From: an uncultured Bacteroidales bacterium
GTDB taxonomy: Bacteria; Bacteroidota; Bacteroidia; Bacteroidales; F082
Assembly (NCBI GenBank): GCA_900318265.1
Contig: ONKA01000021.1
Coordinates: 1-38,066, forward strand
DNA length: 38,066 nucleotides
Reading direction: 5' to 3'
Part shown: positions 18,398-25,333 of the stretch, piece by piece
Layout: every line of letters begins with the position of its first letter
Numbering within the stretch: the first letter of the stretch is position 1
The notes under the pieces: model-generated
Told to the model about the DNA's origin: nothing
The model's database searches: none
Seen by the model: the letters and a program-made list of their open reading frames with translations, nothing else
Made by a program: the position numbers and the translations under genes

Positions 18398-18889
18398 ATG
18401 AAAAAAGTAGTCCGAATAGTTTGGATAGGCGCCCTTACAGGGTTGGCTTTCTTGGTAGCATGTTGCTCCACCAAGGGTCTCACTAAGGCAGAGAAGAAAC
18501 AATTAAAGAGAGACCGAGACTCCATCCAGCAGGCTCTTGACATGTATTGGATGTCGTGTCCCGACTCCGAGCCTAGTCCGGAATTTATGGTGGAATACAA
18601 CCGTCTTCAATATCAGATTGACTCCATCAACTATCGTTTAGGTAAAAGAGTCGATTTGGAAGAAAGCAAACGGATTTTGGAAGAAAGCAAACAAAAAGCG
18701 AATATGAATAAGGATCGTACTGCCCTTCAGCAACGCATCGACGAGCTGAGGATGGCCTTGGAACGTCGCGAAGGCGCTTGCATCTACGGATCGCCGGAAG
18801 TCATGAAAGAATATGGCAAGAAGACGCAAGAGATGCGTGACGAGCTGAAAACCCTTGAGGATCAACTCGAAGGAATGAATAAGAAATAA
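18398..18889 (+). CDS. YG[SP]P-motif lipoprotein 1 of the radical SAM array
   Basis: A 163-residue lipoprotein. The signal peptide MKKVVRIVWIGALTGLAFL is followed by VAC, giving lipid cysteine C22. The mature protein is highly charged and helical, with two parts. An N-terminal module (EKKQLKRDRDSIQQAL to IDSINYRLGKRVDL) is also found in lipoproteins 4 and 5. A C-terminal helical hairpin, RIDELRMALERREGACIYGS to LKTLEDQLEG, places YGSP (Y130-P133) at the turn. It is first in the operon and ends 17 bases before lipoprotein 2. I chose the ATG at 18398; an upstream in-frame start at 18371 falls inside the promoter. No enzymatic motif is seen. It is a likely substrate of the radical SAM enzyme at 20846, by inference from the gene neighbourhood. 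Confidence 0.85.
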   Translation: MKKVVRIVWIGALTGLAFLVACCSTKGLTKAEKKQLKRDRDSIQQALDMYWMSCPDSEPSPEFMVEYNRLQYQIDSINYRLGKRVDLEESKRILEESKQKANMNKDRTALQQRIDELRMALERREGACIYGSPEVMKEYGKKTQEMRDELKTLEDQLEGMNKK

Positions 18890-18906
18890 CATTAAACCAT
18901 TGCGCT

Positions 18907-19233
18907 ATGGGAAAATGGTTCCGTAAGCTTTGGATAGGCTTATTGTCGGGCACGGCAGCCTTGGCGGCATGTAACATCTTCTCGCCGCCGCCCTGCTATT
19001 ATGGCCCGCCACCTATAGATCCAGCTCAGGATTCGGTTACGCAGTCCAAACAGAACAAGCTTGAAATGTTGCGCCAACGTATCGACGAAATCCATGGTGT
19101 CCTCGAGGAACGCCGAAATTCCGAGATTTATGGCCCGCCCGAGATGATGGAAGAGTATGCGAGGGAGAATAGGCGCTTGCAAGCCGAGGCCGATTCCCTT
19201 GAGCAAGAACTGAAAGCTTTGGAAATGGAATAA
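18907..19233 (+). CDS. YG[SP]P-motif lipoprotein 2 of the radical SAM array
   Basis: A 108-residue lipoprotein with signal peptide MGKWFRKLWIGLLSGTAALA followed by AC, so the lipid cysteine is again C22. A short proline-rich stretch after the cysteine contains CYYGPPP (Y32-P36), the first YGPP copy and the only one outside a predicted helical hairpin. Then comes a hairpin: RQRIDEIHGVLEERRNSEI, YGPP (Y75-P78), and EMMEEYARENRRLQAEADSL. It lacks the N-terminal DSINYRLG module of lipoproteins 1, 4 and 5. The leader ATTGCGCT just before its ATG resembles the leaders of lipoproteins 3 and 5, as expected for tandem duplication. No catalytic motif is visible. Confidence 0.85.
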   Translation: MGKWFRKLWIGLLSGTAALAACNIFSPPPCYYGPPPIDPAQDSVTQSKQNKLEMLRQRIDEIHGVLEERRNSEIYGPPEMMEEYARENRRLQAEADSLEQELKALEME

Positions 19234-19247
19234 TAAAGTATTGCGAT

Positions 19248-19511
19248 ATGAAGAAAACACTTAATGCCATACGTATAGGTCTCTTCGTGGGATTGGCCTT
19301 CTTGTTTGCCTGTGGCTCTTCGCCCAAAGACAAAAAACGTCAAGAGCTCCGTGGCAGGATTGACCAAATCCAGGAAATCCTTTCAAAACGCAGCGCGGAA
19401 GCTATCTATGGCTCCCCACAGATGATGCTTGAAAGGGAAGAACAGAACAACCGTTTGGTGGCGGAGAGGGATTCGCTGGAGAAAGAGCTGAAAAAGCTGG
19501 ATGAGGAATAA
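19248..19511 (+). CDS. YG[SP]P-motif lipoprotein 3 of the radical SAM array
   Basis: The smallest member, 87 residues. The signal peptide MKKTLNAIRIGLFVGLAFLF is followed by AC (C22). After a short GSSPKDKK linker, nearly the whole mature protein is one helical hairpin: RGRIDQIQEILSKRSAEAI, YGSP (Y54-P57), then QMMLEREEQNNRLVAERDSL and EKELKKLDEE. It therefore shows the minimal unit of the family. Its start follows lipoprotein 2 by 14 bases with the leader TATTGCGAT. It is easily missed by length-filtered gene finders. No enzyme motif is seen; a structural or substrate role is inferred. Confidence 0.85.
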   Translation: MKKTLNAIRIGLFVGLAFLFACGSSPKDKKRQELRGRIDQIQEILSKRSAEAIYGSPQMMLEREEQNNRLVAERDSLEKELKKLDEE

Positions 19512-19525
19512 CTAAACTTGTTGAT

Positions 19526-20278
19526 ATGAAAAAGGTGGTTCGCTCAATATGGATTTGCGCCCTTTCCGGACTCGCTTTTTTGGGCGCCTGCTGTAGCTCG
19601 CGCGGCTTATCCAGGGCAGAAAAGAAAAAGCTGAAGAAAGAGCGTGACGCCATTGAACAAACTCTGGCAAAGGAGCTCACTTTTAAAGAAGACACTGGCT
19701 GTTGGGGCTTTGTTGAAGAACGAGCGGAACGCTACGAACTCATGAACAAGCTTGATTCCATCAATTTCCGTTTGGGCGAGGACGTCGATTTGGCTAAGAA
19801 TGTGCACCGACGTGAATTGCAGGGTCATCTTGATACCTTATACTATAGTCTTTACAATTTCGATAATGCATTGATATATGGGCCGCCGGATGATATGGGT
19901 TCGTATTATGCTGAACGTGCTGGCAGACGGAGAGCAATGGTGGCGGATATTGATAACACCAAAAAAGAATTGGAGTTGTTGGACCATCCGGAAATGGAAC
20001 AAAACCCTACACAACGTCGTCGTGAATTGGAAAGCAGGCTTGAGTCGCTAAGAAACACCATTGAGGAACGCGAAGGCGCGCGCGTATACGGCTCACCTGA
20101 AGTGATTCAAGAATATAGGAGGGAAACGCAGCGTTTGCGCCAAGAAGCCGATTCGCTTCAACAGGAAATCAAGGCTTTGGAAGAAACAGAAGAGGCCATC
20201 AAAGTTCTGCCTGTTAGGAAAGTGGAGGGACGTGCTGCAGATGTGCTGTATGGTCCGCCGACGCCTAAGCGTAAATAA
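19526..20278 (+). CDS. YG[SP]P-motif lipoprotein 4, three-motif member
   Basis: The longest member, 250 residues. The signal peptide MKKVVRSIWICALSGLAFLG is followed by AC (C22) and is nearly identical to those of lipoproteins 1 and 5. It has the N-terminal charged module (EKKKLKKERDAIEQTL to LDSINFRLGEDVDL) and then two helical hairpins with YGPP at Y118-P121 and YGSP at Y188-P191. A third YGPP lies at Y242-P245, close to the C-terminus (VLYGPPTPKRK). The second hairpin, RLESLRNTIEEREGARV, is closer to the hairpin of lipoprotein 1 than to its own first hairpin. This suggests growth by module duplication and exchange between genes. It is a candidate multi-site substrate of the downstream maturase. 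Confidence 0.85.
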   Translation: MKKVVRSIWICALSGLAFLGACCSSRGLSRAEKKKLKKERDAIEQTLAKELTFKEDTGCWGFVEERAERYELMNKLDSINFRLGEDVDLAKNVHRRELQGHLDTLYYSLYNFDNALIYGPPDDMGSYYAERAGRRRAMVADIDNTKKELELLDHPEMEQNPTQRRRELESRLESLRNTIEEREGARVYGSPEVIQEYRRETQRLRQEADSLQQEIKALEETEEAIKVLPVRKVEGRAADVLYGPPTPKRK

Positions 20279-20290
20279 AGAATTGCGACA

Positions 20291-20839
20291 ATGAAAAAAG
20301 TAGTTCGCATAGTATGGATCAGCGCCTTGACGGGACTTGCCTTCCTGTCCGCCTGCTTGACGCAGAACGGCTTGACCCGCAAGGAACGCAAGCAACTTCG
20401 TAAAGAGCGAGAGCAAGTCGAAATGCAACTTGCCGAATGCCAAAAAGTTACAGAACTCCCAATACATGAGGCGTTCTATTCCAAATACATGGAGTACTTT
20501 GAAAAGAAGTATGCCTTAGAGAATAAACTCGACTCCATCAATTACCGTCTAGGCGACAGTATCGACCTCGACCGTAACATTCGTCGTCGTCAAATCATGA
20601 AGCGTATTGATTCGTTGACTTTCCTTATTGAGACCTATAATCCGCCTTGTGTCTACGGCCCCCCTCCAGGGATGTATCCAGATTACGATGAAGAACAAGC
20701 TAATAAGGAAAGTGATATTTCCATTTGGGAGAGACAATTGAAAGAGGCGAAAAAAGAGCTGGATGAATTTGATATTTCTCGTTTACCGGATGCCGAAGTT
20801 TTGTATGGTAGTCCATATGAGATACGGCTAAAAAAGTAG
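20291..20839 (+). CDS. YG[SP]P-motif lipoprotein 5 of the radical SAM array
   Basis: A 182-residue lipoprotein with signal peptide MKKVVRIVWISALTGLAFLS followed by AC (C22). The N-terminal module ERKQLRKEREQVEMQL to LDSINYRLGDSIDL is shared with lipoproteins 1 and 4. One hairpin, RIDSLTFLIETYNPPCV, carries YGPPP (Y122-P126); a second motif YGSP (Y172-P175) lies near the C-terminus in VLYGSPYEIRLKK, matching the terminal copy of lipoprotein 4. Its stop lies six bases before the radical SAM start, so translation of the two is probably coupled. This tight junction is the main physical link between the lipoprotein array and the enzyme. Confidence 0.85.
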   Translation: MKKVVRIVWISALTGLAFLSACLTQNGLTRKERKQLRKEREQVEMQLAECQKVTELPIHEAFYSKYMEYFEKKYALENKLDSINYRLGDSIDLDRNIRRRQIMKRIDSLTFLIETYNPPCVYGPPPGMYPDYDEEQANKESDISIWERQLKEAKKELDEFDISRLPDAEVLYGSPYEIRLKK

Positions 20840-20845
20840 ATTAAA

Positions 20846-21931
20846 ATGAGCGAACGCTTAGGCTTATATAAAAAGTTGATGCTCGAACTCAACCGCGCAG
20901 TGCTGCAAAAACGCACCGACGAGCACGAGCTTCACCAATTGTTTTGGGAGTGTACGTTGCGTTGCAACCTCAACTGCCGCCATTGCGGCTCCGATTGTCG
21001 TATGCTCTCCGAGAAGGACGACATGCCACTTGAGGATTTCCTCAAAGTGTTGGACGAGATTCGCGAACATCAAGACCCGGGCAAGCTGATGGTGATCACT
21101 ACGGGGGGCGAACCCACTGTGCGCCCCGACTTGGCCCAATGCGGTGCCGAGATTTCGAAACGTGGCTTCGTTTGGGGCATGGTGTGCAACGGCATGCTGC
21201 TCTCGGCTGAGAAACTCAACGAGTTTATGGATGCCGGACTGAAATCGTTGGCGGTGAGCTTTGACGGATTCGAGGAAGACCACAACTGGATGCGCGGCAA
21301 CCCGAACAGCTACAAGAACGTGCTGCGTGCCGTGGAGGCCATGAAACAACATCCGAGCCTCACTTGGGATGTCATCACATGCGTCAACCAACGCACCATC
21401 AAGTATTTGCCGCAGTTCCGAGATTTCCTTATCTCCTTGGGTATCCGTCGTTGGCGTCTGTTCACGGTGTTCCCCTTCGGCCGCGCCGCCAACGAGCCCG
21501 ACTTCAAGCTCAGCAACGAGCAGTTTGTGATGATGATGGAGTTCATCCGTCAGACAAGGTTGGAAGGCAGGATCCGCGCCGACTATGGCTGCGACGGTTT
21601 CCTTGGCAAGTATGAGGGCGAGGTGCGCAACCACTATTTCTCGTGCAGTGCAGGCATCAACGTGGCCTCGGTGCTGGCCGACGGCTCCATCTCGGGCTGC
21701 CTCAGCATCCGTAGTGACTATCACCAGGGCAACATCTATAAGGACAGCTTCTGGGACGTGTGGCAAAACAAGTTCCAGGTCTATCGTGACCACTCATGGA
21801 TGAAGACCGGCCAATGCGCCGACTGCAAGATGTGGCGCTATTGCCTGGGCAACGGCATGCACCTCCGCGATGGCGACGGGAAATTGCAGATCTGTCAATA
21901 CCACATGATTGTTGGCAACGACAAATCCTAA
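20846..21931 (+). CDS. Radical SAM/SPASM enzyme of the rSAM/lipoprotein type
   Basis: A 361-residue radical SAM protein. The cluster-binding CxxxCxxC is C40, C44, C47 (CNLNCRHC), with extra cysteines C36 and C51. A GGEP motif (ITTGGEPTVRPDL) follows near residue 88. The C-terminal SPASM region has C267, C285, then C324, C327, C333 and C350 (CADCKMWRYC), which would bind auxiliary 4Fe-4S clusters. SPASM enzymes typically modify peptides or proteins, as in anaerobic sulfatase maturation and sactipeptide formation. From memory it fits the family annotated as rSAM/lipoprotein system enzyme (TIGR04133), found next to lipoproteins in Bacteroidetes. Six bases separate it from lipoprotein 5. There is no signal peptide, so it would act in the cytoplasm before lipoprotein export. 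The exact reaction is unknown. Confidence 0.88.
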   Translation: MSERLGLYKKLMLELNRAVLQKRTDEHELHQLFWECTLRCNLNCRHCGSDCRMLSEKDDMPLEDFLKVLDEIREHQDPGKLMVITTGGEPTVRPDLAQCGAEISKRGFVWGMVCNGMLLSAEKLNEFMDAGLKSLAVSFDGFEEDHNWMRGNPNSYKNVLRAVEAMKQHPSLTWDVITCVNQRTIKYLPQFRDFLISLGIRRWRLFTVFPFGRAANEPDFKLSNEQFVMMMEFIRQTRLEGRIRADYGCDGFLGKYEGEVRNHYFSCSAGINVASVLADGSISGCLSIRSDYHQGNIYKDSFWDVWQNKFQVYRDHSWMKTGQCADCKMWRYCLGNGMHLRDGDGKLQICQYHMIVGNDKS

Positions 21932-21934
21932 ATT

Positions 21935-21962
21935 GTCAATTATCAATTATCAATTCTCAATT
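21935..21962 (+). repeat. Heptamer array before aroK
   Basis: Four 7-base units: GTCAATT, ATCAATT, ATCAATT, CTCAATT. The last base is also the first base of the TTG start codon of aroK. The array fills the gap between the radical SAM gene and aroK. Confidence 0.7.
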
Positions 21963-22471
21963 TGAATCGAATCTACATCGTCGGATATATGGGTGCGGGT
22001 AAGACCACTGCCGCACGGCGTCTCGCCCAGCGCTTGGGTTGGGAGGTGGTCGACACGGATGCCCTGTTCGAGGAGAAATACAAGATTTCGGTCAACGACT
22101 TCTTCAACAAATACGATGAAGCGCTGTACCGTAAGCTTGAATCCGAGGTGCTGAAGGCTACCGAGAGCCTGGAAAACGTGGTGGTTTCAACGGGCGGCGG
22201 CACGGCCTGTTATTTCGACAATATGGAATGGATGAACCAACATGGACTGACGGTCTTCATGCACATCAGTCCCAAGGCTGCCGTCGACCGCGTCATCCAT
22301 TCGCGCCATAAACGTCCTTTGGTCGAAGGCAAGAGCGAGGAAGAGTTGACTGATTTCGTTAACAAGCACTATGCCTCGCGTATGCCGTTCTATGAAAAGG
22401 CCAGAATCACCGTGAAGTCGGAAGACCTCGACGTTGATGGCATGATGAACACGATAAAAGAAAACCTCTAG
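21962..22471 (+). CDS. aroK: Shikimate kinase
   Basis: A 169-residue enzyme that phosphorylates shikimate with ATP in the chorismate (aromatic amino acid) pathway. The Walker A motif GYMGAGKTT lies at residues 8-16, followed by the substrate-binding VDTDALFEE near 30, the GGGTA loop near 77, and RPL near 119 in the lid. Length is normal for AroK. The start is TTG, overlapping the heptamer array; it places the P-loop at the normal distance from the N-terminus, and the next ATG would delete part of it. It follows the radical SAM gene by 30 bases and overlaps or abuts the sensor kinase gene. A second enzyme of the same pathway, aroE, lies at 33685-32945. Confidence 0.9.
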   Translation: MNRIYIVGYMGAGKTTAARRLAQRLGWEVVDTDALFEEKYKISVNDFFNKYDEALYRKLESEVLKATESLENVVVSTGGGTACYFDNMEWMNQHGLTVFMHISPKAAVDRVIHSRHKRPLVEGKSEEELTDFVNKHYASRMPFYEKARITVKSEDLDVDGMMNTIKENL

Positions 22472-22473
22472 TG

Positions 22474-24366
22474 ATGAAGAAAGTATTTCTATTAATAGGT
22501 GTGCTGTGGGCTTGCCTGTTTGCTTCGGCGCAAGATCTCGACAGCCTTTTTCAGGTCTTTGAAAACAATAGGGGAGAGGCGGCCTATCGTGCGGCATTGG
22601 CCATCGATGAGACCATAGGCCGCGAACCCAATTTCGATGCCGACACCGACAAGGACGAGATCAAGCTGAAGGTGCTGCGCACGATGATCCTTTATTTCTT
22701 CAACAACAACGATTTCCAGCATGTGGTGCAGTATTCCGAAGTCGGCATCGCCCACTATCAAAAGATCGGTGACCTTTTCAACCAAGCCGGCTGCACGATG
22801 ACCTTGGCCAATGCCTACCAGCGTCTCGGGCAATTGGACAAAGCCATCGACTGCTACAACCAGTGCAACGACCTCATGGACCAGATCGGCGGCGAGATGG
22901 CCGAAGTCAACAAACGCTATGTCATCAACAACATCGCGGAGATCCACCTCTCCATGGGCGAATACGAAACAGCTGAGGAGATGTACCGCAAGTGCATCGA
23001 CATGCTCGGCACCATCGACCCTGCTGACACCGCCTCTAACCTCGACTTGGCTACTTATTACCAGAACCTGGCCGAGGTGCGCATCGCCCAAGACAATCCC
23101 GAGGCGGTGGGTTTCGCCGAGCAGTCGCTGGAACTGTCAAAGAAATACATGGACACCCCGCATAAGATCATCAACAGGTTGATGGCCTTGTCGAAGGCGT
23201 ATCATATCGTCGATCGCAACGACGAGAGTGCCGAGCTGATGGACGAGGCCTTGGGCATCGCGGTAGAAAACGGCGAGACCTTCTTGGAGACCGGTATTTA
23301 CCTGCAAAAAGGCGACTTCACCAAGGCGATAGCCATGGCTGACGAAAACCATTTCGACGAGCTACTCCAGGAGGCGCTTCAAGGCGCCTATTTGGCGGAA
23401 CGGGAGCGCAATCCCAAGCTGGCGCTGGAGTATTTTGAAAGGAGCGTGATGATGAAAGACTCCGTCTTCAACGAGAAGCAGCAGGAACTCATCCGCGACT
23501 ATCAGGTGCGTTATGCCACCCAGGAGAAAGAACACGCCCTAGCCATGGAGCAGGAAAAATCGAAGCGCAACAGGATGTATGTCATCGTTTTGGCCGTCGT
23601 CGCGGCCTTGTTGCTCCTCATCGCATTTATCTGGTATCGTTTGGCACAAGCCCGCAAGAGACGCACCGAGGAGCTGGCCCACCTCAACGCCACCAAGGAC
23701 CGTCTGCTCTCCATCGTGTCGCACGACGTGAGGACACCCGTTGGGGCGATGTGTCAGGTGATGCGCGACCTGACCGACAACTACGACGGTATGGTCGAGA
23801 CCGACCGCAAGGCCAAGCTCGTCATGCTGCGCACCTCGTCGGAGGCCTTGAACGACCGCATGGAGAACATCATCCACTGGGTGAAGGGCGAGTTGGAGAA
23901 CAGCAAGGTTGAGCCTGTCGACTTCAACCTCTCCGAATTGGTCGACGGATGCATCAAGGAGCAGGCGATGGTTATTGATGCCAAGTCATTGAAAGTCTGT
24001 AATGAAGTGCCGAAAGTGATGATGGCTCACGACGACGCCAACGTGGTGCGCCTCGTGATGCAGAACCTGTTGAGCAACGCGGTGAAGTTCTCCTATCCCG
24101 ACGGTGAAGTCAGCGTGAAGGCGGAGGAGAAGGGCGGTCGCATCTGGATCGAGGTGAGCGACAACGGCATGGGCATCGGAGAGAAGAAACTGGAGAAGAT
24201 CTTCAAGTTCATGACCTCATCGGACAGCGGCACGAGTGGCGAGACGGGCACCGGCATCGGCCTCTTCGTCAGCAAGATGCTGGTGGATAAGATTGGCGGT
24301 GAGATTACGATTGAGAGTAGGAAAGATGAAGGCACGGTGGTCCGGTTCAGTGTCAGTGCTCATTAG
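22474..24366 (+). CDS. TPR-containing sensor histidine kinase
   Basis: A 630-residue membrane kinase. The signal peptide MKKVFLLIGVLWACLFASA is followed by a periplasmic region of TPR-like repeats, about residues 30-350 (GDLFNQAGCTMTLANAYQRL). One membrane segment lies at 368-390 (YVIVLAVVAALLLLIAFIWY), then a HisKA domain with H417 in SHDVRTP and a HATPase with NLLSNAVKFS, DNGMGI and GTGIGL. It would sense a periplasmic signal, autophosphorylate and pass phosphate to a regulator, probably the LuxR-type protein at 24680. I chose the ATG at 22474; a GTG three bases earlier overlaps the aroK stop. This TPR-transmembrane-kinase design is common in Bacteroidetes. The signal is unknown. Confidence 0.9.
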   Translation: MKKVFLLIGVLWACLFASAQDLDSLFQVFENNRGEAAYRAALAIDETIGREPNFDADTDKDEIKLKVLRTMILYFFNNNDFQHVVQYSEVGIAHYQKIGDLFNQAGCTMTLANAYQRLGQLDKAIDCYNQCNDLMDQIGGEMAEVNKRYVINNIAEIHLSMGEYETAEEMYRKCIDMLGTIDPADTASNLDLATYYQNLAEVRIAQDNPEAVGFAEQSLELSKKYMDTPHKIINRLMALSKAYHIVDRNDESAELMDEALGIAVENGETFLETGIYLQKGDFTKAIAMADENHFDELLQEALQGAYLAERERNPKLALEYFERSVMMKDSVFNEKQQELIRDYQVRYATQEKEHALAMEQEKSKRNRMYVIVLAVVAALLLLIAFIWYRLAQARKRRTEELAHLNATKDRLLSIVSHDVRTPVGAMCQVMRDLTDNYDGMVETDRKAKLVMLRTSSEALNDRMENIIHWVKGELENSKVEPVDFNLSELVDGCIKEQAMVIDAKSLKVCNEVPKVMMAHDDANVVRLVMQNLLSNAVKFSYPDGEVSVKAEEKGGRIWIEVSDNGMGIGEKKLEKIFKFMTSSDSGTSGETGTGIGLFVSKMLVDKIGGEITIESRKDEGTVVRFSVSAH

Positions 24367-24374
24367 TCTGTTGA

Positions 24375-24395
24375 CCCTGACTGCTGACCCTGACT
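24375..24395 (+). repeat. CTGACCC-type repeat, left inverted arm
   Basis: A 21-base stretch starting CCCTGACTGCTGACC is repeated exactly on the opposite strand at 24621-24641. The pair flanks the truncated four-helix-bundle gene. Further CTGACC units follow directly. Confidence 0.8.
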
Positions 24396-24444
24396 CTGAC
24401 CAATCCCACGTAAATAAAAAGTGTAACAATTAACAAAAGACAAC

Positions 24445-24615
24445 ATGAGAAATTTCAAAAACTATGATGTTTGGACGGACGGCGTTGATTTTTGCGTCGA
24501 AGTTTATAAGATGACGGAGCAGTTCCCTAAAAAGGAAACTTACGCTTTAAGCGATCAAATGCAAAGAGCAGCAGTCTCCATTCCTTCGAATGTGGCCGAA
24601 GCCTTCCCCTGGTAG
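24445..24615 (+). pseudogene. Truncated four-helix-bundle (23S rRNA IVP family) protein
   Basis: A 56-residue reading frame starting MRNFKNYDVWTDGVDFCVEV and ending SIPSNVAEAFPW. It matches the N-terminal half of the four-helix-bundle protein family (TIGR02436/PF05635, usually about 115-125 residues). That family carries a conserved RRAAVSIPSNIAEG motif, and homology breaks exactly at that motif. The C-terminal two helices are missing, so the product is unlikely to fold as in intact members. It lies between the sensor kinase and its presumed regulator, bounded by inverted copies of a 21-base repeat. It is probably the remnant of an insertion or deletion. Intact relatives occur inside rRNA intervening sequences or near mobile DNA. 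Confidence 0.75.
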
Positions 24616-24620
24616 AAACA

Positions 24621-24641
24621 AGTCAGGGTCAGCAGTCAGGG
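24621..24641 (-). repeat. CTGACCC-type repeat, right inverted arm
   Basis: This is the exact reverse complement, 21 of 21 bases, of 24375-24395. An additional GTCAGGGT unit follows. It begins six bases after the stop of the truncated four-helix gene. Confidence 0.8.
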
Positions 24642-24679
24642 TCAGGGTTAATAAAACAAGAAAGAAGAAGAAAAAAACA

Positions 24680-25333
24680 ATGAACGAAGAAATACAAAAT
24701 AGAATAAGAATCTTGATGGTCGAAGACCAACCGATATGTCGCATGGGCATTCACTCCACTTTGGAGAGCTCCAATCTCGACTATCAGATTGTGGCCGAAG
24801 CCGATACGGTGGCGAAGGCCATAAGCTTCCTTGAGCAGAATGGCAACCAAACCGATCTCATCCTCTTGGATTATATGCTGCCTGACGGCACGGGCATGGA
24901 TGTCATTAGCGCGGCCAAGCGCCTTTGTCCCGACGCCAAGATCGTCATCTTCTCGGGTGAGGCGGGTGGGGCCACCGTCAAGCAGCTGTTGGAGGCGGGG
25001 GTGAACGGCTTCATGAGTAAGAGCATCAACTCGGAGGAGATTGCCTTGGTGCTGCGTTCGGTGATGGCGGGCAACGACTACACGGGCGAGGCCCACATGC
25101 GCATCGAGAGCGACCTCAAGGCCGACTACGAGACCATGAAGACCCTCACGCGCCGCGAGATGGAACTCATTAGTTTGTGTGCCACTGGACTGAATACCAA
25201 ACAGTTGGCCGATGAGATGTGTGTCACGCCCCACAGCATCGAGAACATGAAGAGCAGCATCTTCAGCAAGGTAGGGGTGAAGTCGACCAACGAGCTCATC
25301 CTTTTCGCCTTCCGTGTCGGCCTCGTCAACTGA
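24680..25333 (+). CDS. NarL/LuxR-type response regulator
   Basis: A 217-residue two-component regulator. The receiver domain starts RIRILMVEDQPICRMGIHST and has the phosphoacceptor D64 in LILLDYMLPDG, with the conserved VIFSGEAG and GFMSKS segments. The C-terminal LuxR helix-turn-helix (LTRREMELISLCATGLNTKQ, then VTPHSIENMKSSIFSKVGV) binds DNA. The start at 24680 is preferred over an in-frame start at 24590, whose extension is encoded by repeats and a poly-lysine stretch. It is the probable partner of the TPR kinase upstream, although a gene remnant and repeats now separate them. Its stop is followed by a heptamer array and a terminator. The target genes are not known; the surface protein at 25517 is a possible one by proximity. 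Confidence 0.9.
   Translation: MNEEIQNRIRILMVEDQPICRMGIHSTLESSNLDYQIVAEADTVAKAISFLEQNGNQTDLILLDYMLPDGTGMDVISAAKRLCPDAKIVIFSGEAGGATVKQLLEAGVNGFMSKSINSEEIALVLRSVMAGNDYTGEAHMRIESDLKADYETMKTLTRREMELISLCATGLNTKQLADEMCVTPHSIENMKSSIFSKVGVKSTNELILFAFRVGLVN

Follow-up and report, generated by a model that had tools for sequence, protein, structure and literature searches.

What would a single radical S-adenosylmethionine (SAM) enzyme do with five lipoproteins encoded directly ahead of it? This question is raised by a stretch of 38,066 nucleotides (nt) from an uncultured Bacteroidales bacterium of the rumen (GTDB lineage F082; ONKA01000021.1), hereafter the window, which is the entire contig C4 of a 50-contig assembly with a completeness of 89%. 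Between positions 18,398 and 21,931, five consecutive lipoprotein genes precede the gene of a radical SAM/SPASM enzyme, and the lipoproteins hold nine copies of the motif YG[SP]P. The locus is best explained as an expanded substrate array for an enzyme of family TIGR04133, which would be a motif-directed, splicease-like modifier of lipoproteins.

The lipoprotein array and its enzyme

The features are listed below with coordinates and strand; lengths are in amino acids (aa), and the lipid cysteine of all five lipoproteins is residue 22 (Cys22).

18398..18889, +, lipoprotein 1: 163 aa, Cys22, one YGSP at 18785-18796
18907..19233, +, lipoprotein 2: 108 aa, Cys22, two YGPP at 19000-19011 and 19129-19140
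19248..19511, +, lipoprotein 3: 87 aa, Cys22, one YGSP at 19407-19418
19526..20278, +, lipoprotein 4: 250 aa, Cys22, YGPP at 19877-19888, YGSP at 20087-20098, YGPP at 20249-20260
20291..20839, +, lipoprotein 5: 182 aa, Cys22, YGPP at 20654-20665, YGSP at 20804-20815
20846..21931, +, radical SAM/SPASM enzyme: 361 aa, TIGR04133, signature GFLGKYE ahead of the SPASM domain
21962..22471, +, shikimate kinase (Pfam SKI): neighbour outside the system

A first-pass annotation of the window had described the five tandem lipoproteins, their lengths, Cys22, the nine motifs and the six-base gap to the SPASM gene, and all of this was reproduced exactly. The motif occurs 1, 2, 1, 3 and 2 times in lipoproteins 1 to 5; the first, more N-terminal site of lipoprotein 1 is degenerate when compared with relatives. 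From composition, 0.006 copies are expected in the 790 residues, and the maximum in 20,000 shuffles was one, which rules out a chance origin of the nine. As the intergenic gaps from lipoprotein 1 through the enzyme are only 17, 14, 14, 12 and 6 nt, array and enzyme likely form one operon.

Common to the array lipoproteins is a module of about 60 residues with the consensus REGACVYGSPE, flanked by two helical stretches; lipoprotein 3 would consist of a single hairpin module. The AlphaFold2 model of lipoprotein 4 has a mean predicted local distance difference test (pLDDT) value of 75.5 and a predicted TM-score (pTM) of 0.48, and because of the latter it is readable for local structure only. Its inner two motifs are located in loops (115-123 and 185-190) joining long helices, i.e. 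in predicted hairpins, and the third motif lies in a low-confidence tail. The earlier description of the lipoproteins as nearly all-helical agrees with this model, and is to be read for this 250-aa protein only. Foldseek gave no match to the model at E ≤ 0.001, and a Pfam scan of the array lipoproteins gave below-cut-off matches only.

The first-pass annotation had also related these proteins to the lipoprotein family TIGR04134. The corresponding profile gave no match at E ≤ 1 to any of the five (membership requires more than 39.8 bits, a cut-off exceeded by the positive controls L072, L108 and L111), and this rules out their membership; the remark that TIGR04134 lipoproteins hold YGxP proved right for these same three controls. 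Lipoproteins exported to the surface of Bacteroidota cells have, as a rule, acidic residues behind the lipid Cys. Few such residues follow it in the window lipoproteins, which by this rule would face the periplasm.

The assignment of the enzyme to TIGR04133 was borne out by a profile search, which gave 560.7 bits (cut-off 425) over model positions 2-348 of 350; the domains are PF04055 (radical SAM) and PF13186 (SPASM). In 21 aligned members of the family the invariant cysteines are C40, C44 and C47 (CxxxCxxC) as well as 249, 267, 285, 324, 327, 333 and 350. The AlphaFold2 model of the enzyme (mean pLDDT 87.7, pTM 0.87) has one helix only ahead of the first strand, so that an RRE domain appears to be absent. 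Foldseek related this model to generic SPASM-type folds, namely PqqE, BlsE, anSME, SkfB and SuiB. Further downstream, 3' of the shikimate kinase and in the orientation of the array genes, a TPR/HATPase protein (histidine kinase-like) and a LuxR-type response regulator are encoded at 22471-25333.

Pairing of enzyme and motif in relatives and across the order

The closest records stem from uncultured Bacteroidia or Bacteroidales, many of them apparently from ruminants, and one from Candidatus Limimorpha equi. From the scan for relatives, the best 80 of 286 were kept; the clade set used below consists of 67 loci including the window, the enzymes of which share an identity of 78% or more. Going upstream from the enzyme, the first lipoprotein call within 300 nt, picked regardless of motif, contains YGxP in 66 of 66 cases; the 67th locus, L044, has no lipoprotein there. 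Among these 66, the protein of L008 is a mis-called 65-aa part of a YGCP protein, and the next lipoprotein upstream also has YGxP. The genome of L044 (G588) encodes a 104-aa lipoprotein with VYGSPE away from the enzyme on contig C16 (L212:1495-1809); it adjoins a shikimate kinase gene of the same family as the one 3' of the window enzyme. In the other predicted lipoproteins of the 67 loci (open reading frames, ORFs, of at least 100 aa, called mechanically), YG[SPT]P was found in 0 of 186, and in 7 of 519 other, non-lipoprotein proteins; the zero count rules out that YG[SPT]P is a common lipoprotein motif. The array class itself, in which 66 of 76 contain YG[SPT]P, gives a circular rate; the count of 0/186 and that of the nearest lipoproteins are free of this circularity. 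Both the proposed conservation of the pairing in related genomes and the expectation that unlinked lipoproteins carry the motif less often are in agreement with these counts.

With respect to the number of lipoproteins, the clade loci have none in one case (L044), one in 52, two in eight, three in two, four in one, five in two (the window and L008) and six in one (L007), and the number of motifs per locus reaches 12. Slots 1-4 of the array each have their own orthologues in related species (40 proteins in 14 of the 67 loci): lipoprotein 2 in L007, L008, L011, L015 and L059, lipoprotein 3 in L007, L008 and L059; lipoprotein 5 is not cleanly assignable between slots 5 and 6 of L007. These orthologues argue that the array is maintained across species and rule out that its members are recent redundant copies. 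Between array and enzyme, a motif-bearing protein not taken for a lipoprotein is located in L008, L011 and L042; in the first two it is a cytosolic-looking protein of 88-89 aa with YGCP (L008:6729-6998, L011:6724-6990).

In order to locate what is conserved, 38 lipoproteins of at least 150 aa (out of 57 listed, all selected for having YGxP) were aligned: past the signal peptide, the only invariant columns are E32, L36, R40, Y188, G189 and P191. The codons of the motif vary (TAT 90 and TAC 85 for Tyr; all four codons for Pro), which indicates that the protein sequence is what is kept. Of the 178 clade sites, 172 have V, L or I ahead of Tyr, and x is mostly S, P or T, with Gly in two. In the order sample introduced below, Tyr is preceded mostly by C, E, K, V or M, unlike in the clade, and x is Gly at the sole site of two small lipoproteins (L171 and L174). 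As x varies widely and is sometimes Gly, a chemistry at Tyr-Gly, and not at x, would fit.

A sample of 295 genomes of the order, which overlaps the clade loci in part (L025, L031, L050 and L063 correspond to G298, G494, G579 and G395), contained TIGR04133 at E ≤ 1e-100 in 64 genomes. A profile of the helical lipoproteins matched in eight of the 295, in all eight with TIGR04133 just downstream, and in none of the 231 genomes without TIGR04133. The sample gave 79 TIGR04133 matches, of which 77 neighbourhoods were taken, the other two being the window genome's own; 73 have at least 700 nt upstream, and four shorter ones were left uncounted. An upstream YGxP protein was present in 65 of the 73 loci, 60 times by rule and five times by inspection (L152, L155, L167, L193, L202). 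Two or three such partners, not all called lipoproteins, occur in 11 of the 60 loci found by rule. The window genome itself has a second TIGR04133 gene (474 bits; contig C22, L002:389-2559) with three lipoproteins whose motif follows close after the lipid Cys (ACYGAP, ACYGVP, CCKYGMP); the locus has a weak match to TIGR04134 (28.1 bits, under the cut-off). This locus alone makes clear that several lipoproteins per enzyme are not special to the window. The statement that such enzymes normally have one lipoprotein is correct as the majority state and too narrow as a rule, given two or more in 14 of the 67 clade loci; together with the order sample and the second locus, these counts rule out several partners as a trait of the window only.

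The carriers of YGxP beside TIGR04133 differ in their scaffold: they comprise the TIGR04134 type, short lipoproteins with a near-C-terminal motif (L076), tail-anchored and transmembrane (TM)-anchored proteins, and in some of them the motif directly follows the lipid Cys (CYGTP). The motif is what these scaffolds share. Two proteins adjoining TIGR04133 have no lipobox: L042:2388-2609 is N-terminally TM-anchored (by eye) and has two motifs, LYGPPEVLYGPP, and L080:3113-3277, of 54 aa, is tail-anchored (by eye) and contains CVYGPPPP. Outside Bacteroidota, TIGR04133 and a TIGR04134 lipoprotein (SCYGMP) are found on a plasmid of Treponema saccharophilum (L108:2592-4068). The closest known system is the TIGR04133/TIGR04134 pair itself (rSAM_w_lipo and lipo_with_rSAM in NCBIfam), with which the window has in common a full-length TIGR04133 enzyme, lipoprotein genes directly upstream and YGxP substrates. 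In contrast to TIGR04134, the window substrates are helical by prediction, have Cys22 and carry the motif repeatedly and in hairpin turns; loci of the window type reach six lipoproteins and 12 motifs, whereas TIGR04134 pairs mostly have one motif near the lipid Cys.

Kinship to the maturases of Tyr-Gly precursors

A link absent from the first-pass annotation, which we think is the best lead, is that to the X-Tyr-Gly splice motif. According to the available text of PMC11002830 and PMC10373908, the splicease PlpX together with PlpY excises the tyramine part of Xaa-Tyr-Gly, the product being an alpha-keto amide. In PMC10533398 (here and below, in the portion of its text that was available), (L/G)YGLPI, a form of YGxP, occurs in most splice tags, and the leader is dispensable for splicing; the mass change given there for the excision is -135.0757 (C8H9NO). 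In as far as these sources describe it, PlpX resembles the window system as a radical SAM enzyme with an X-Tyr-Gly target, multi-site substrates, no requirement for a leader, and YGLP tags.

Several enzymes next to YG precursors were compared. The maturase TIGR04103 of Nostoc (853 bits to this model) adjoins a Nif11 precursor ending in LYGLPPELF, and has the SPASM domain layout and the G[FY]xGxYE signature in common with the window enzyme. The substrates in the window differ from those of PlpX and TIGR04103 in being lipoproteins and not Nif11/NHLP leader peptides, and the set of SPASM cysteines differs as well. The GDL-motif/DUF1843 loci (TIGR03913) are alike in their tandem paralogous small substrates, the enzyme signature and the side of the tree. 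In three of them (L087, L110, L114), YG stands close to the N-terminus of most substrates: L087 has it in both, L114 in two of three and L110 in one of three, the others showing YA or YM instead. These substrates are 56-64 aa long with no lipobox and no Pro after YG-x, and their enzymes have 474-516 aa. In another genome of the same order, a TIGR04103-like radical SAM enzyme precedes a protein of 214 aa in which KYGYP is repeated six times, five times as KYGYPC (L091:1468-3599); a Pfam scan gave no match for the repeat protein. On a plasmid of Agathobacter rectalis, an unannotated 68-aa ORF ending in MYGTGVRM lies just upstream of a radical SAM gene (L109:2725-2931) and is a possible splice precursor.

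A maximum-likelihood tree places TIGR04133 together with the TIGR04103, GDL/DUF1843 and KYGYP enzymes, and apart from PqqE, MftC, NirJ and TIGR04053. The support of this branch is 95/93 with the long branches L123 and L124 left out, and 92/97, unstarred, with both kept. Just before the SPASM domain, G[FY]xGxYE was found in 22 of 23 TIGR04133 rows (AYVGPYE in the remaining one) and in all four TIGR04103/GDL/DUF1843 rows, i.e. in four of five YG-precursor maturases, and in none of the nine rows from other families; L123 and L124 do not have it. When the four TIGR04103/GDL/DUF1843 enzymes are scored against the NCBIfam models, TIGR04133 comes third or fourth, in two of the four directly after TIGR03913/TIGR04103, with AhbD and TIGR04053 close.

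Candidate chemistries at the motif

We consider it very probable that some modification occurs at YGxP. That TIGR04133 splices its lipoproteins by a PlpX-like excision of tyramine from X-Tyr-Gly is the chemistry we favour, at a little short of an even chance. In this mechanism, the cytosolic enzyme would need neither a separate leader nor an RRE domain to recognize the short tag [V/L/I]-Tyr-Gly-x-Pro. It is an Fe-S enzyme with no visible signal peptide, whereas its substrates have signal peptides, and tag modification would consequently precede export and lipidation of the lipoproteins. Ketoamides, several per protein and many at hairpin tips, would be the result in the helical lipoproteins. 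A speculative use of these groups would be as reversible covalent traps for Ser or Cys proteases, with Val, Leu or Ile as P1; these residues might suit the P1 pocket of HtrA-type proteases.

A number of observations weigh against splicing. The enzyme scores 117.8 bits with TIGR04103 (cut-off 725), under the 121.9 bits of TIGR04053, with AhbD at 111.4 bits and NirJ2 also near; it is 28% identical to the Nostoc TIGR04103 enzyme, and among the SPASM positions of TIGR04133 Cys249 is present, whereas position 337, a Cys in the compared TIGR04103 and DUF1843 sequences, is mostly Gly (by eye). TIGR04103 would itself be a splicease by locus layout and motif, and solved structures searched by the sequence of the Nostoc enzyme gave none named splicease. 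A long branch (2.8) leads to TIGR04133, whose placement among the YG-side lineages is poorly supported (37/32), and the sampling of the tree leaves out AhbD and PlpX itself. Also on this side of the tree are five rows (L088, L092, L104, L109, L115) for which no YG substrate is established; these, and the KYGYP enzyme L091, do not have G[FY]xGxYE. The DUF1843 substrates have YG without x-Pro, and in PMC10533398 another splice tag reads YGVV, so that Pro is not a splicease hallmark; of the tag placements in FtsZ given in Table 1 of the same paper, 2 of 16 only were spliced. No gene like PlpY (an RRE-like partner) was found among the ORFs of the operon, the search being confined to these. Finally, an upstream YGxP partner was not found in eight of the 73 loci of the order sample (L165, L166, L169, L172, L179, L180, L186, L203), whose substrate may be encoded farther away or bear a changed motif.

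SPASM enzymes commonly make crosslinks, and PqqE and SuiB, which are among the folds closest to the enzyme, are crosslinking enzymes. An intramolecular crosslink at the motif, either a three-residue cyclophane (Tyr ring joined to the x side chain) or a link of Tyr with Pro, would use the invariant Tyr and Pro and give rigid hairpin tips. It explains neither why Gly is invariant nor why YGLP is shared with the splice tags, and if the two clade sites with x = Gly and the sole sites of L171 and L174 are modified, attachment at the beta carbon of x would not be general; we regard a crosslink as improbable. The crosslinked lipoprotein layer imagined in the first-pass annotation found no support here. 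Somewhat less improbable, and still unlikely, is another change at Tyr, Gly or Pro, such as epimerisation, C-methylation, hydroxylation, an alpha-thioether or cleavage: the families closest by score (TIGR04053, TIGR04103, AhbD, NirJ2) are varied. The signature and the tree position common to the enzyme and most YG-precursor maturases speak against it.

The least probable explanation, to which we give little credence, is that YGxP is an unmodified structural hairpin turn, the target of the enzyme being another site or other proteins. A YG-x-P sequence would be well suited to a turn, and two of the three motifs of lipoprotein 4 are modelled as inter-helix loops. The motif is, however, also found beside the enzyme on unlike scaffolds, directly after the lipid Cys and in the low-confidence tail of the model, and the absence of YG[SPT]P from the 186 other lipoproteins is likewise at odds with a mere turn.

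An open-access literature search gave no paper naming TIGR04133 or TIGR04134, and among the titles listed on related subjects none suggested the pair. The available text of the survey PMC10352776 on Bacteroidales ribosomally synthesised and post-translationally modified peptides contains no word beginning with splic or lipid. As cited in the available portion of PMC10533398, Scott et al. 2022 predicted 939 splicease systems, which may already include TIGR04133.

Splicing, taken to its full extent, leads to a picture that we offer tentatively and hold at clearly below an even chance: TIGR04133 would be a backbone-splicing enzyme for membrane lipoproteins, many envelope lipoproteins of Bacteroidales would contain alpha-keto-beta-amino acids, and the lineage of the window would have multiplied these to between nine and twelve ketoamide sites in an operon, many of them presumably at the tips of helical hairpins, perhaps as covalent inhibitors of envelope proteases. 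If the splicease reading is true, a common enzyme of gut Bacteroidales gains a reaction with a distinctive mass loss, and backbone-spliced residues extend from small natural products to the lipoproteins of the cell envelope. The YGxP array would then be a natural multi-site tag, and the system an unusual route of chemically altering cell-envelope proteins.

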